Position numbers and translations under genes: made by a program. The notes beneath the pieces are model-generated. The model worked only from the letters and a program-made list of their open reading frames with translations. It searched no databases and was not told the origin of the DNA. Shown here one piece after another: positions 13,111 through 21,173 of a stretch of DNA of 54,438 bases (positions are counted from its first letter, which is position 1; the number at the start of each line of letters is the position of its first letter). The DNA comes from Halobacterium noricense. GTDB taxonomy: Archaea > Halobacteriota > Halobacteria > Halobacteriales > Halobacteriaceae. The DNA lies in contig NZ_CP089470.1 in assembly GCF_021233435.1 (NCBI RefSeq), positions 1 through 54,438 of the forward strand. Reading direction: 5' to 3'.

Positions 13111-13775
13111 CCGCCACCTGGACATCCCGAGTCGGTACCGCCCACCGCTAGCGCGCCATCCGACTCCTCACGTTGTTCTCTCCTCGCGCGGTCTCCTACC
13201 GGCACGATCGGTTACGAGCGCCACGGCGAGCACACGCTACGCTCAGGCGCACGACACAACGACACCACAGCCACGACGAATGAACGCCACCAGCACAGTC
13301 GATGGGTCTCCACACGACTTCGGGGGTGATGCACGGCGCAGTCCGCACAGGAGAATGCCGAACCCGTACTCCAGCAGCCACCACCGCGTGTTCGACACGA
13401 TGCGGGTGGCGTGTACTGGTCGCGGGCGGTGGGGTCGAATCCGCTGAATCTGATCTGGCGTCTACACCGCCAGTACCGACAGTATACTGTTCGCACAACG
13501 AGCCCACACGCACGAAAGCCGAACGCAGTAACGTTTCTACAACGACGACGGACGTGAGAAACCTCAACGACACCCCGATCCCACAACCAGCACACCATCA
13601 ACAACGAATCGTCCACAGTGACGCCCAGTACCGAACGCGAGTGCTCGGCAGTCGCCGCCCGAGCTCACCCCACGCTATCGCTGAGGTTGTCTTCCCCGTG
13701 ATCATCGGCGGTGTTCTCCCACCGCTCTCGCCATACCTACCATATTCGATATAGTTTAGCCGGTGTTTTTCGGTT
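13111..13775. other. gene-free stretch before the repeat array
   Basis: Open frames here (for example 13302-13754) are Ser/Thr/Arg-rich without domains or acidic bias and look like chance. I see no RNA gene or strong hairpin. It leads into the repeat array. Confidence 0.5.
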
Positions 13776-14262
13776 CTAAGTACACGACGGGGGCCGGATT
13801 CGGGGGTCTCATGTTTATGTCCGTAATTGCCAGATGGCAGTCGGATTCCGGGGGGTGCGTGTTTACTGCCACAGTAGAACTGCGGCGCAGACAGTAACTC
13901 GCGTAATTACCAGACGGCGTTGGGATTACGGGTGTCTGTGTTTACTCCCGTAAGTACCGGACGGCCCCAGAGTTTCACGGGGGTTGTATTTACTCGGTCA
14001 GAGCCCCCTCACAGAATCGCCCCGGCACCCTAATCACCAGACGGCGGCCGGATTCAGGGGGTGTATGTTTAGTACCGTAATCACCGGACGGCAGTAGGAT
14101 TCGGCGTGTCTGTGTTTAACTCTTGAACCGGCTTCAAAACCCCGTGTAATCACCAGACGGCAATCGAATTGGGCGCTTCCATGTTTATTTATGCTTTCTA
14201 CCTGTTAGTTTGTGTAATCACCAGATGGCGGTGCAATTCAGGGGGTAATCTGTTTAATTCGC
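13776..14262 (+). repeat. array of eight degenerate ~45-bp direct repeats
   Basis: Units start at 13776, 13823, 13903, 13950, 14030, 14077, 14146 and 14214. The consensus has three parts: GTAATCACCAGACGGC, then GGATTCNGGGGGTGT, then TGTTTA. Start spacings are 47, 80, 47, 80, 47, 69 and 68 bp, so the first six units form pairs with a 127-bp super-period. Spacers are unrelated and unequal. Iteron, centromere or packaging-signal roles are possible. It is not a CRISPR array because units are imperfect and spacers vary or are absent. Confidence 0.8.
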
Positions 14263-14379
14263 CACCCCCAAATTCAGCCACATACGTTCAGCCACGGAAC
14301 GAGACGCGATTATAGGGTCTATACAGAGTTCTCCACTTGTCTAATATGACCAGCGGAATTCACACAATTAGGGTTCAGG

Positions 14380-15140
14380 GAGGTTGAAGTTCCAGTTGGT
14401 AGTCGCGTGGCGGTTGATTCAGGCGGAGCCGGGTTGGAGGCGAGGAGGAGAGGGGGAGGGAAGGAGTGATGGGAGAGTGGACTACCAGATTGTTGATACT
14501 GGTGGGAACCCTCGGGGGAGCACACGAGTAGGAGGTGGAGTTCGGTCGTTACCGGCGAGGTATTTGAGCGAGAAGGCAGAGGGGGTCAGTGGTCGAGTGG
14601 CGAGGGTGGATGGCTGGCGGGGAGAGTAGCAGTGGTGGGGGTCAGACTGGACTCAGTAGAGACGGGGAACTACTGCGGTCGTGCGGCGGCGAGATGGGGA
14701 CTGGCTGGACTGAGCGAAGTAGGGGATGCATCGCCGCAGCGAGAACGAGAGTTGGTGGGGTCGAGTAGCGAGATGGGAGTGGCGATGGTGAAGCGAGACG
14801 ATGGGGTTCGGGGGTGGGTGCTGCAGGACTTGGGACTGTGGCGGCGACAGCGATGGAGGAGGGGTGAAGGGAGCGAGGACGACGACGATGTGGTGGGGCG
14901 GCAGCGACAACGACGACGACGACAGCGAAGCGGGAGCGGGGGGAGCGAGAGCGAGAACGAAGACGACGACGTCGGGGGTCGAGGGCGATGCGGGATGGGG
15001 GCGATAGCACGAGCAGGCAGCAACGACACAACACGGCTCGGGAACGCAACAGCAACAACGGACAGCGAACATCGACAGCGGACAACAGACAGCGAGGGGG
15101 ACAGCTTGAGGGCCAACGCGGTTCGACGTCCGGGAACAAG
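14380..15140 (+). other. purine-rich, T-depleted non-coding tract
   Basis: The forward strand is G/A-rich and very poor in T: 14881-15120 holds only 12 T in 240 bases. Long frames on both strands exist only because stop codons are rare; they encode Arg/Asp/Gly or Pro/Ser/Arg strings without domains. The tract lies between the repeat array and a strong hairpin. Possible roles are an untranslated RNA, an R-loop region or unwinding DNA. No function can be assigned. Confidence 0.6.
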
Positions 15141-15141
15141 A

Positions 15142-15175
15142 CATCCCCTTCTAGGAGGGCTCTAGAAGGGGGATG
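15142..15175. repeat. strong hairpin closing the T-poor tract
   Basis: CATCCCCTTCTAG (15142-15154) pairs with CTAGAAGGGGGATG (15162-15175) with a one-base bulge and a 7-base loop. There is no T run after it on the forward strand. Could be an RNA processing/termination hairpin or a protein site. Confidence 0.7.
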
Positions 15176-15502
15176 AGAGTGGGGGTTGGTATTAGAGCAG
15201 GAGAAGATCTTGCCCGGCGTTGCCGTAGGCGGGACTCTCAGGGCGGAGCCAGCGTGTCAGTCGGGGCGGGGCCGGATGGTGGGCGCGGCGGCGGGGAGTA
15301 GCCGGGGCCGGCAAACAACAACTAGAACAAGACTAGGTCGGCAAAATGTGGGGGCCTCGACTCAGCGAACGGGATTGTCAACCCAGGTCCCACGGCCAAG
15401 TCAGGCACGTGGCTAATACGTGTGGCGTCGGCTCAGGCGCTTTTGCTCGCTGGGGACGCTGTTTGGATGGTCTGTGTTCTCCATATCGCTTACAACGCTC
15501 TG

Positions 15503-15671
15503 CGGACCGAGACGACAGCAAGGCCTCGGTCCGATGTGATGATTACGGGGAGCCGAACAGGGGGACGCTCGTGATGACTTTGACGATATTTCGGTACGAC
15601 TCTGTGAAGTACCTCGGGGACAAGCCCCGAGGCACTCGCCCTGTTCAGCCTGTAGAGGCGTTATGCGTCTA
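15503..15671 (+). ncRNA. candidate structured RNA
   Basis: Several helices lie in a gene-free region. CGGACCGAG (15503-15511) pairs with CTCGGTCCG (15525-15533). GAACAGGG (15555-15562) pairs with CCCTGTTC (15639-15646) and encloses CCTCGGGG (15612-15619) with CCCCGAGG (15625-15632). TAGAGGC...GCGTCTA (15653-15671) is an imperfect hairpin. Overlapping frames are unconvincing, and the strand is not determined by the helices. I do not recognise a known RNA class. The rest of 15176-16007 shows no gene. Confidence 0.4.
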
Positions 15672-16007
15672 TCGTGGTTGTCCTGGTCTCTGAGTTGGTG
15701 CGACTGAAGTGTGGACGGACGAGATCTGTGACCCTCGTTCAACGAGTAGTCCCTCATCGAAGTTTTCAGTGGTATCAGAGATCACGGGTTCATGGCTAAC
15801 GCGCCCAGCCTCGGTTGAGTGGAAGTCACGGTCACGGTCACGGTAGTTCTGTCTATTGGTGAATCATTCAGAGAAATGCGGATTGACGTTGAATTGTGGG
15901 CTCCTATATCCCTCTACCTCCTCTTCTAACTACCTATTAGATGCGACTCTAGGACCGCAATATCTAATAACTAATTAGTCATTAGTTCATAGTGAGGACG
16001 TTATCGT

Positions 16008-16643: not shown

Positions 16644-17180
16644 CGTCTCGGGTGCCGCGAGCGACGCGGTTTCTCGCCGGACAGGATGTTGACTGTCAGG
16701 ATAGTTTCGCATTAATGGTTATCGTGGCATGATTCAAATCGTAATGGGGTGAGTCGAGTCTGTATTGGGTATTTGGTATTGTTGTCTAAGAAACCTAATT
16801 GCCGGGGATTTCATACCGCAAGGGGTGGATAATTAGGGAGAATATTTCTGTGTATTAATCTATTATAGCGATATCTCTTGTAGGGAACAGTCCAATTTCA
16901 ATAGATAAAACACAACGAGACTCGCAACCCCCCACGAAGTACCGCGGGAGTGGGGGCTGTGAGAGACTTGTTTTTAACTACCGGAGGTAGTGGAGTGTGA
17001 ATTAATAGGTCGATAACACTACAAGGAGATTCTTGCGGTACAGACGTTCAAAGACGCAAATACGCGATTCAGGGTTTGTGACAGCGATATAAAAGTCACA
17101 GCCAATCCAACACAGAACTAGCACGATTCTAGCGGAATCCCCCGGCGCAGGCACGCCGGAGGAATCGTGCTGCCACACCG
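16644..17180. other. gene-free AT-rich stretch
   Basis: No supported gene. A hairpin with arms CCCCCAC (16929-16935) and GTGGGGG (16950-16956) is present, along with AT-rich promoter-like sequence around 16840-16900. Confidence 0.45.
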
Positions 17181-17462
17181 ATGACAGCAAGCCAAATTAC
17201 CAGGGTCAACAGTGATAACTCTGTCTCACAGAGCGCCACGCTTGAACACGACCCACTGACACACCACGCCGTACAATTCGCACACCAACGAACTGCCACA
17301 CCCGACGACGACAGCAGTCCCACAGGTATCCAGCTGCGTGAACTGATACCGCAGTATCTACCATGGCACCCGCACGGCACCGACGAACACCGCCCCGACG
17401 ACACCTCCTCGAGAACCCGTCAGACGCATCGACGAACCACACTCACCTCGGGGGCGGTCTGA
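17181..17462 (+). CDS. possible small protein at the head of the nuclease operon
   Basis: A 93-residue frame whose stop directly abuts the next ATG. It is rich in His, Thr and Asp and has no recognisable domain. The tight junction with 17463 favours translation, but composition is not strongly haloarchaeal. It may be chance. Confidence 0.3.
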   Translation: MTASQITRVNSDNSVSQSATLEHDPLTHHAVQFAHQRTATPDDDSSPTGIQLRELIPQYLPWHPHGTDEHRPDDTSSRTRQTHRRTTLTSGAV

Positions 17463-17849
17463 ATGGACGATACAACCGACGACACGGCGTCGCTCGCCAT
17501 CCCGATGGACCCCGACGTCGCGTTCAACGCAATCTCGAATAGTCGTCGTCGACGCGTCTTGTTATCGTTGTCACGCACCAGCGGCGAGCTCACCGCTAAC
17601 GAACTCGCCTTCGAAATCGCGGCCATCGAAAATTCAGTCGACCCCAGCAAAGTCGGCAGTGACGAGCGGACGTCCGTCTACATCACGCTCACCCAATCAC
17701 ATCTCGAGACGCTCGCTGAGTGCGGTGCTATCGACTATGATGGCCGTTCGAAGACTGCGACTGCGGCGGATGCAACCGAACCGCTCGCCGAATACATCCG
17801 CCGACTCCAAACGGCGTGCTACAAGCCAGAATCGGAGGACCCCTCATGA
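17463..17849 (+). CDS. winged-helix protein, DUF7344-like
   Basis: A 128-residue protein. It begins with an acidic stretch, then PDVAFNAISNSRRRRVLLSL, the typical opening of a haloarchaeal winged-helix family in which a short RRR-containing helix precedes the HTH. The wing region is YITLTQSHLETLAECGAIDYDGRSKTAT. It is probably a DNA-binding regulator. It overlaps the next gene by 4 bp (ATGA), and that gene overlaps the nuclease gene, so it is likely the regulator of a coupled three-gene operon. Confidence 0.7.
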   Translation: MDDTTDDTASLAIPMDPDVAFNAISNSRRRRVLLSLSRTSGELTANELAFEIAAIENSVDPSKVGSDERTSVYITLTQSHLETLAECGAIDYDGRSKTATAADATEPLAEYIRRLQTACYKPESEDPS

Positions 17850-18532
17850 CGGACGCCCAGCAGCCAGCACTCGCAGTCCTTCAAGACATCGACGCCAACT
17901 TCCACCGGCTGTTTGAGAGCGTTGCTGAGACCGACGCCACAGAGTCCACACCGGCAGGCGATCCAATTGCCATGCTGCACAGAGCGCGGGCACAGATCGA
18001 CGCTGCACTACTCGACCACCAGCGCCGAACGGACGACACCTCCCTCCCTGACTCTGAGTCGTGTCTCCTCCAGTGGAATCCATCCGGCACACCACCTCGT
18101 CGGCTCGTTCTCGAGCCCAGGGATGGCGACAGCTGGACGCGGCGTGAACTGGAGTGGACGGGAGACGGCTGGCGTGTCTGTCGTCGTGACACCGTCGACG
18201 ACGTCGCGATCCGCGCACCCGCTGCACCACGGTATCCGAACCCGGTCGATCCGCCGTCGATCGACACGCTGCTTGCATGGGTCCGCGGCGCCTGGACGCA
18301 TCCGGATCCACCAGCGCTCGTGTTCGAGGCTACCGCAACGACCGAACAGGGCGTCGTTGTCGCCGTCAACGACGAACTCCGGTATCGAGAGCGCGACAGC
18401 CAGCAGTGGTACACAGTCACCGAAGACGAACTCTACCACCATCTCCAACAGCAAGGCCAGCCGACGCTCCAGTCGCTCGCAGAGACGCCGCTAACGCGAC
18501 AGCACTTCACCCAAAGTCCACTCACACAATGA
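17846..18532 (+). CDS. uncharacterised middle gene of the nuclease operon
   Basis: A 228-residue protein starting MTDAQQPALAVLQDID at the ATGA overlap; an in-frame upstream start is less likely. A helical N-terminus (about 1-60) is followed by Trp-rich beta segments (RRELEWTGDGWRVCRRD, LLAWVRGAWTH, DELRYRERDSQQWYTV). No enzyme motif is visible. Coupled to both neighbours, so it probably acts with the PD-(D/E)XK protein, for example as a specificity or immunity subunit. That is inference. Confidence 0.6.
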   Translation: MTDAQQPALAVLQDIDANFHRLFESVAETDATESTPAGDPIAMLHRARAQIDAALLDHQRRTDDTSLPDSESCLLQWNPSGTPPRRLVLEPRDGDSWTRRELEWTGDGWRVCRRDTVDDVAIRAPAAPRYPNPVDPPSIDTLLAWVRGAWTHPDPPALVFEATATTEQGVVVAVNDELRYRERDSQQWYTVTEDELYHHLQQQGQPTLQSLAETPLTRQHFTQSPLTQ

Positions 18533-19578
18533 CGTCGGATACGCCTTCACTCCCGGACGGATACGACGACCACCTGAGCGTGCTCACGGATATGATTGCG
18601 TCCGTTCGTGACACGCTCAAGACTGACCACACGCTCTCTACTGACCAGCGGAGGTTCGCCCGCCGACTCCTGTTCTTGGCGAGCGAGCCAGTTAACGAAG
18701 CCGAACGCATTCTCCCCAAGTCAGACAGGACTGATGAACCGCGGGACGTCCAGACTCCAGACACGGGGGGCGACTACGAGGACGCACTCACCAATATCGA
18801 ACGAGAGTTGTGTTGGCTGATTCAATCATTCCGAACTGAGCAGCCGGCAGCCTACCACTACGATGAAGCCCCGGCCGCGAAATTCACAACGGCACTTGAG
18901 TATGCGACGGCGCTGCGGGACATCCTGCCAGCGGTGCCGGCAGACAGTCCAGTACTCGCCGAGATGGACACGATCAGTGTCGACGATGTCGACCCGCACG
19001 TTGGTGGTCGTGGCGATAGCGATGGGCGGTGGCTCGAGTACCAGCTCCAGCGAGCACTCGAACGCTGGGGGTACGGTGCGGTGAGACGCCAACATCTCTT
19101 CAGTCTGGAGGTTGACGTCGTTGCCACGCGGAAAACGAAACAGCAGGACCCCAGTGATTGGATTGTCGCCCAATGTAAAGACTGGACGGACGACCCAATC
19201 ACGCCAGTGGCTCTCTTCCGGTTGTGTACTGTGGCGTTTGCCTGCCGGGCGATGCCAGTGCTCTGCCATACGACCGAGCTAACGCCTCGAACGGAGCAAC
19301 TTGCGCGTGAATTCGAGGTGAGGGTGCTTGAGCTACAAGATCTTGAACGTGCTGAGTTGCCTGCCCCGCAGGTTGCCAAACCAACGATGGAGCTCCAGGA
19401 GTGGCGGCCACAGTACCGCGCTCGCGATGATCGGGGCTCGCTCCCGTTGCTGTTCTACAACGAGCCGGGGAAACGGTTTAGCTACGTTCCAGGGTTCACC
19501 CCAGTAGGGAAAGACGCCGACTACGAACCGATTGAGAGTGATCGGGATGAGGATACACATCCCGCTGCTGGACGCTGA
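18529..19578 (+). CDS. PD-(D/E)XK (Mrr-like) endonuclease-domain protein
   Basis: A 349-residue protein starting MTSDTPSLPDG at the overlap with the upstream stop. The helical N-terminal part (about 1-150) has no clear family. At about residues 160-270 it has the Mrr/RecB-like nuclease pattern: GRWLEYQLQRALERWGYGA with the helix Glu, the catalytic Asp in LEVDVVATRK, and the Q-x-K motif in IVAQCKDW about 20 residues later, then a core helix and strand AMPVLCHTT. The residues needed for metal-dependent DNA cleavage are present. It is the last gene of a coupled regulator-unknown-nuclease operon, a layout common in defence or element-maintenance modules. The substrate is unknown. Confidence 0.72.
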   Translation: MTSDTPSLPDGYDDHLSVLTDMIASVRDTLKTDHTLSTDQRRFARRLLFLASEPVNEAERILPKSDRTDEPRDVQTPDTGGDYEDALTNIERELCWLIQSFRTEQPAAYHYDEAPAAKFTTALEYATALRDILPAVPADSPVLAEMDTISVDDVDPHVGGRGDSDGRWLEYQLQRALERWGYGAVRRQHLFSLEVDVVATRKTKQQDPSDWIVAQCKDWTDDPITPVALFRLCTVAFACRAMPVLCHTTELTPRTEQLAREFEVRVLELQDLERAELPAPQVAKPTMELQEWRPQYRARDDRGSLPLLFYNEPGKRFSYVPGFTPVGKDADYEPIESDRDEDTHPAAGR

Positions 19579-20831: not shown

Positions 20832-21173
20832 ATGGGTGATTCGAACGACGAGAACCCGTATGTGGTCATTCCAGACACTGACGAGTACTATGCGCTGGGC
20901 TTTCTCGTCCCCAATCGCGGAGAGCAATTCACGCCGTCTGAGATTGCCGCCAGCACCGACATGAGTGAAGCGGACGCAGCAGACACGATGACCACCCTTT
21001 TCGAAGACGACCTCGTCGAACGGTCTCAGGGAGCCTATTACGTCCCGGTAGATCGCGCAGAAGAGCTTCAACGGCGGCTTGAGTCGGTTGATGCCGCCGC
21101 AAAGTTACATGATGCCACGCCCGATGATGCCTATGCTGTTGAAGGCTGGGAGGAGCAGGTGGACTCTCTATAA
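20832..21173 (+). CDS. small winged-helix regulator
   Basis: A 113-residue protein. After an acidic start, YYALGFLVPNRGEQFTPSEI and an HTH (ASTDMSEADAADTMTTLFED) are followed by a wing (LVERSQGAYYVPVDRAEELQ) and an acidic C-terminus. It fits a MarR-like or antitoxin-type winged helix. A decayed paralogue lies at 19705-19862. No toxin is seen next to it. Confidence 0.65.
   Translation: MGDSNDENPYVVIPDTDEYYALGFLVPNRGEQFTPSEIAASTDMSEADAADTMTTLFEDDLVERSQGAYYVPVDRAEELQRRLESVDAAAKLHDATPDDAYAVEGWEEQVDSL

Follow-up and report, generated by a model that had tools for sequence, protein, structure and literature searches.

Introduction

Type IV (Mrr-family) restriction endonucleases, which include the Mrr of Haloferax volcanii (PMC6471742), are among the described systems closest to the locus considered here. 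In bacteria, the controllers BrxR (PMC9122601), CapW (PMC9122588) and CapK/CapS (PMC13373217) have been found at the head of diverse immune operons. In this study we focused on three overlapping genes, termed wH, mid and nuc, in a window of 54,438 bp which is the whole of one contig (C3) of a 3.3 Mb Halobacterium-type genome. The trio resembles the Mrr family in that nuc has a Mrr_cat-like PD-(D/E)XK domain with a D...[QE]xK motif and is accompanied by no methylase. However, nuc has a helical N-terminus in place of the Mrr_N winged helix, and the trio adds an obligate-looking Trp-rich partner (mid) and a DUF7344 regulator (wH).

The locus also recalls BrxR, CapW and CapK/CapS, as here too a DNA-binding regulator heads diverse, interchangeable immune or nuclease operons. 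It differs from them in that DUF7344 is haloarchaeal and has no STAS domain (Pfam) and no WYL domain (Pfam; wH, and ORF0 and DUF7344 of locus L107), in that its head also contains a structured leader, itself conserved, along with another small wHTH ORF, and in that this head is also present at integrase loci. The predicted catalytic domain of nuc superposes on those of the modification-dependent endonucleases AspBHI (Z 8.8) and MspJI (Z 7.9), but no SRA-like recognition domain was detected and the operon organisation is different. AddAB/RecB-like helicase-nucleases (UvrD with PDDEXK_1) are another kind of cargo for which this control head is used; they are not present in the window and have no sequence relation to mid and nuc. 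A literature search returned no paper on DUF7344 and none on the copy of the trio carried by pNRC100.

The three coupled genes

The preliminary description gave the limits of three genes joined by ATGA overlaps, and these proved to be exact. All three lie on the forward strand, wH at 17463..17849 (128 aa), mid at 17846..18532 (228 aa) and nuc at 18529..19578 (349 aa), and both junctions read ATGA. Among the 25 loci measured, wH and mid overlap by 4 nt in 18, while the overlap of mid and nuc is 4 nt in 17 and 14 nt in eight. The arrangement is not a matter of chance, since the gene order is identical in 29 loci. Judged from median dN/dS values of 0.12-0.29, all segments of the trio are under purifying selection (wH, 0.18; the two parts of mid, 0.28 and 0.16; the N-terminus of nuc, 0.29; its nuclease domain, 0.12).

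The first gene had been read as a winged-helix regulator. It belongs to DUF7344 (PF24035, E=1.1e-20; 74.2 bits, the gathering cut-off being 27.8), and the label of regulator fits both the winged-helix-like nature of this family and an operon with a palindrome centred on its TATA box. The DUF7344 of the window had no match among phage records. A small wHTH gene (cluster c3) lies 1.25 kb downstream of nuc (20832..21173, forward strand). Members of this cluster occur in 18 loci of the set and follow nuc in many of the trios, a relationship of association only.

The mid polypeptide comprises a helical hairpin (residues 1-66) and a Trp-rich beta domain (71-228) in which W77, W104, W109 and W150 are invariant. 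It is indeed, as first described, a Trp-rich protein without a known family. Structure prediction, proposed as a check, gave a good model over much of the beta part but revealed no clear structural relative. A guide-RNA-binding fold of the Whirly/MRP type was considered and rejected: the top Foldseek match had E=0.011 with a TM of 0.19 only, and VIA superposed with Z of about 5 over just 47 residues.

Comparison of related loci was informative in helping to understand the relationship between mid and nuc. In Natrialbaceae the beta part of mid is freestanding and is followed by separate proteins of 330-358 aa and a short Mrr-only protein, and both in Halorubrum lacusprofundi pHLAC01 and in L014 a single protein unites a beta region, helices and the Mrr domain. 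The Trp-rich and nuclease domains of Natrialbaceae and pHLAC01 have thus undergone splitting, duplication or fusion, and these natural rearrangements argue for mid and nuc forming one functional unit. In some relatives mid is duplicated, shortened or devoid of its helical part while nuc is retained, and two loci (L037 and L067) have a nuc relative without any relative of mid. Natrialbaceae versions of the module (L062, L064, L069, L070, L071 and L036) begin with a different winged-helix gene and end in a conserved coiled-coil protein of about 290 aa (cluster c5).

The nuclease

The nuc polypeptide consists of an N-terminal four-helix region (residues 1 to about 145) and a Mrr_cat-like PD-(D/E)XK domain, the catalytic domain being residues 160-276 (19006..19356, forward strand; E170, D196 and Q215-C-K217). 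The catalytic Asp and QxK were noticed at the outset from the letters alone, and they have stood up well: E170, D196, C216 and K217 are invariant in alignments of 34 and 27 relatives, and position 215 is occupied by Q or E, apart from a single S. Structure prediction agrees, as the C-terminal domain of the AF2 model (mean pLDDT 67.6 for the whole protein, with the helices and nuclease core better) matches AF1548 with Z 12.5 and 2.6 A over 106 residues. EndoMS (Z 11.0), Cdn1/Can2 (Z about 10) and FokI were also among the structural matches. The combination found, a conserved E, D and (D/E/Q)xK in an alpha-beta fold, is that of the PD-(D/E)XK superfamily. The window nuc itself has no match to Mrr_cat (PF04471) up to E=10, below the Pfam threshold, and nine of 27 relatives do match (best 1e-7). 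The motif first noticed is thus supported by structure prediction, the lack of which had been named as grounds for refutation.

No match to the Mrr_N winged helix was found in nuc, and its N-terminus is predicted to be a helical bundle. This is the most variable part of the protein, with a mean identity of 47% compared to 78% for the nuclease domain. A likeness to Dps/ferritin (Z 8-9.6) is within the chance range for helical bundles and was set aside. The N-terminus was also considered as a specificity domain that is swapped between loci; there is one clear replacement only (L041 against L044/L048), and as wH and other segments have been exchanged too, this is better regarded as general mosaicism. 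A viral origin of nuc was likewise not retained, no relatives being present in IMG/VR or phage records. PADLOC gave no match for mid or nuc up to E=10.

Distribution and genomic setting

The window carries genes for ParA, Orc1/Cdc6, a TraG-like ATPase, TBP and a tyrosine integrase, and is therefore plasmid-like. About 3 kb of it (13111-16007) has almost no coding signal, and may be an origin or a degenerate region; around 14400-15200 there is an odd low-complexity, skewed stretch.

Conserved synteny of the three genes had been named as the first thing to look for, and the trio with its overlaps was present in 29 loci, from many haloarchaeal genera (Halobacterium, Halorubrum, Halobellus, Halorussus, Haloplanus, Salinibaculum and others). 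These loci are mosaics, on plasmids and integrative elements and often near integrases; the H. salinarum plasmids pNRC100, pNRC200 and pHSAL2 are among them, the pNRC100 copy being L033 (VNG_RS12775-RS14380). A protein search found relatives of nuc in 26 of 293 genomes of the order, and the GTDB species set gave 36 loci. Most genomes of the same genus lack the trio.

The expectation that the trio would lie beside defence genes was borne out in some loci, but linkage to mobile elements and their integrases is equally strong. As raw occurrences, HerA-like and LmuB/PbeC-like genes neighbour the trio genes in L052, and a screen of 137 families neighbouring trio loci traced a type IIG restriction-modification gene to a position 2.9 kb away from L051, a Natrialba locus. 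The claim that no methylase accompanies the trio holds for the whole window, with none among its 47 genes (PADLOC-DB, E<=1e-5). In lacking the cognate methyltransferase of types I-III the window does not contain a simple restriction-modification set. Several Halorubrum loci (L053-L061) have genes for CetZ (tubulin-like) and a SWIM zinc-finger protein directly upstream of the trio. A PLSDB label of mupirocin resistance on a 48-aa haloarchaeal ORF (L032, 11819-11965; L033, 11816-11962) is almost certainly an annotation artefact.

The upstream control region

The transcription unit almost certainly begins about 350 nt before wH and exceeds three genes; this upstream part was absent from the preliminary description. 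Every one of the 29 trios is preceded by a conserved region with a TATA promoter, a structured element of about 150 nt and a short ORF. The promoter lies within the palindrome TGTGAC-N4-ATATAAAA-GTCACA (17077..17100, forward strand), the TATA core being invariant in 25 aligned loci and the palindrome arms largely retained. On sequence grounds the palindrome is probably an autoregulatory operator. Its overlap with the TATA box does no more than hint that the adjacent operon is repressed. The operator reading applies only to the trio subtype; as a general property it was rejected, the arms being no better than shuffles elsewhere.

The structured leader (17119..17267, forward strand), defined by covariation and conservation, begins with a hairpin at the expected transcription start. 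It has four parts, namely a nested 5' hairpin, a short stem at the start codon of the ORF termed ORF0, a long-range GGGTC/GACCC helix and an inner hairpin. An invariant ATGACAGC(A) doubles as the ORF0 start, and a conserved AGTGATAACTCTGTC block accompanies the long-range helix.

ORF0 itself (17181..17462, forward strand) has 93 codons, and its stop directly precedes the ATG of DUF7344. In nearly all trio loci an ORF of this type, starting MTA.., ends between -1 and +3 of the wH start. All three codon positions are equally conserved over codons 1-17 (0.87/0.84/0.84), which places the constraint on the ORF0 start at the nucleotide level. Full-length, wHTH-like versions of about 100 aa are present in L065, L106, L107 and L109-L111, and the ORF0 of the window is a remnant of this small winged-helix gene.

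The case for structure in the leader rests on comparison, single-sequence folding being unremarkable (z-score -1.1). In the trios alone, 92.5% of the cells of its 31 pairs are paired, compared to 35-49% in slid controls, and six pairs are altered on both sides. When distant members are included, in an alignment fitted to the model and hence biased towards it, 17 of the 31 pairs and 96 cells are changed on both sides (slid controls, 11-23 cells). The covariation score is 0.255, against at most 0.07 for slid and 0.10 for shuffled controls, and model hits reached 162 bits (R1) and 140 bits (R2). The best match of the window in Rfam 15 was an unrelated snoRNA (E=1.1, 18.9 of the 45 bits needed), and five distant leader copies had no Rfam match.

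Such a pattern raises the question of whether the element acts as RNA or as DNA. Its nested perfect palindromes, and the integrase genes just 5' of it in several loci, are what would be expected of a DNA site, either a series of palindromes bound by proteins or a site at which the neighbouring integrases recombine DNA. An excess of G.U pairs does not prove RNA, as G.U to A.C stands at 36 to 45 over the whole set, a ratio that does not favour RNA, with a mixed result per helix. However, in the trios G.U exceeds A.C in the outer hairpin (12:3) and in the long-range helix (6:3), every pair of this helix covaries across a spacing of about 70 nt, and a start codon lies within a conserved short stem. 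In most loci, those with other cargo included, a TATA-like box is found some 25-30 nt 5' of the hairpin, the distance of a transcription start. The position of this box and the long-range helix favour an RNA leader, and a DNA site is the less likely interpretation.

A shared head on varied cargo

The R2 search of the order gave 60 leader copies in 46 of 392 haloarchaeal genomes, representing 26 genera, and in a phylum-wide draw of 247 genomes hits were confined to the order. In 40 of 48 loci examined a DUF7344 gene follows just downstream in the same direction, despite there being only three DUF7344 genes in the genome of the window. Loci with mid and nuc relatives but no DUF7344 (L051, L062, L064, L069 and L071) also have no leader, and a further one, L070, has a weak partial match of 20 bits. 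It follows that it is DUF7344, and not the nuclease, that accompanies the leader. This structured control region is strongly conserved and has not been described before.

The cargo behind the leader includes mid and nuc, UvrD helicase-PD-(D/E)XK operons, integrases, and single HNH and preQ0 cases. Nine leader-headed operons end in a UvrD-helicase/PD-(D/E)XK protein (L107, L108, L109, L111, L113-L115, L137 and L139). Their products, behind leader and DUF7344, are of about 270 aa, about 400 aa and 1160-1185 aa, the last being a UvrD helicase fused to PD-(D/E)XK which is also present on 16 haloarchaeal plasmids; neither of the two smaller ones belongs to a Pfam family. This cargo could be a recombination machine. 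An HNH gene, with DUF7344, lies behind the leader in L138, and an Eco57I-like type IIG restriction-modification gene in L149, where no DUF7344 was detected. A divergent leader in L143 is 5' of a run of radical-SAM, FolE-like and QueC genes (preQ0 synthesis), possibly a DNA-modification cargo.

Leaders lie beside integrases in nine of the 48 loci. In L106 and L110, contigs of 45-46 kb equal in length to IMG/VR viral entries (L162 and L163), the order is integrase, leader, ORF0, DUF7344 and second integrase, both integrases being of the tyrosine type. This arrangement is reminiscent of a region controlling lysogeny or integration.

Function of the module

The first reading of the locus was that of a defence or maintenance module. 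This is borne out in part: a conserved operon with a predicted nuclease is present, but PADLOC has no model for mid or nuc and the link to mobile elements is as strong as that to defence. We suggest, with a probability of about one half, that the trio is a nuclease module which lacks a methylase, is borne by mobile elements and stands under a portable, shared head, probably directed against foreign or rival DNA. The presence of the leader in all 29 trios, the invariant catalytic residues and the other DNA-attacking cargo behind the leader point to a module, and the location of the loci on plasmids and near integrases points to mobile elements.

The operon would consist of mid and nuc, preceded by a head for their control in which a TATA promoter and its operator are followed by the structured leader, ORF0 and DUF7344. 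DUF7344, perhaps together with the leader, may hold expression low until a signal such as the entry of another element releases it, in the way that bacterial immune operons are controlled by BrxR, CapW or CapK/CapS. The mid and nuc polypeptides would then act jointly, possibly as a complex, with the Mrr_cat-like domain cutting DNA and the helical and Trp-rich parts choosing the target or serving assembly. As there is no methylase to shield any sequence, discrimination would depend on the state of the target (its modification, structure or replication form), as in type IV systems.

A less likely but serious alternative is that mid and nuc serve the DNA processing of their own plasmid or integrative element (resolution, copy control, transfer or integration intermediates), with the DUF7344 head as its switch between quiescent and active states. 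The occurrence of leaders beside integrases suggests that the head began as a mobile-element switch, in which case the cargo may belong to element biology and not defence. Besides the genomic setting of the trio and the head placed between two integrases in L106 and L110, a relative of the nuc domain lies on pKBTZ03_58 close to genes for ParA and a recombinase, and the fold of nuc is also near that of the repair nuclease EndoMS/NucS. However, carriage by a minority of genomes and absence from most of the same genus, the existence of mid and nuc without the head, and type IIG and preQ0 genes as other cargo, which are unlike replication functions, do not agree well with such a role. A toxin-like maintenance or abortive module, in which a self-harmful nuc is checked by mid or wH and freed by plasmid loss or infection, would suit the tight translational coupling, the order of regulator, partner and nuclease, the plasmid location and the strong control region, but is quite unlikely given that nuc persists where mid is duplicated, shortened, stripped of its helical part or missing altogether, which would be unusual for an antidote.

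Significance of the leader-DUF7344 head

The larger finding, beyond the trio, is the conserved head of leader and DUF7344. To our knowledge few structured regulatory RNAs have been described in archaea, and we are aware of little on how costly or self-harmful nuclease systems are switched on in these organisms. We tentatively put forward a portable head of haloarchaeal mobile elements, made up of a promoter, a structured RNA leader within which the first start codon lies, a small wHTH ORF and DUF7344, which may switch interchangeable weapon or integration cargo, mid and nuc included; the leader would then represent a hitherto undescribed class of cis-regulatory RNA in archaea, and mid and nuc a new nuclease system without a methylase. 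That the head is a swappable switch for the weapons of mobile elements is a testable idea, and directly so, because Halobacterium salinarum NRC-1, a strain amenable to genetics, carries the locus (pNRC100/200). As one control region stands before restriction-like, helicase-nuclease and integrase genes, a signal or regulator found once would be applicable to many loci, and the leader provides a search key for further defence or mobile-element operons of the haloarchaea.
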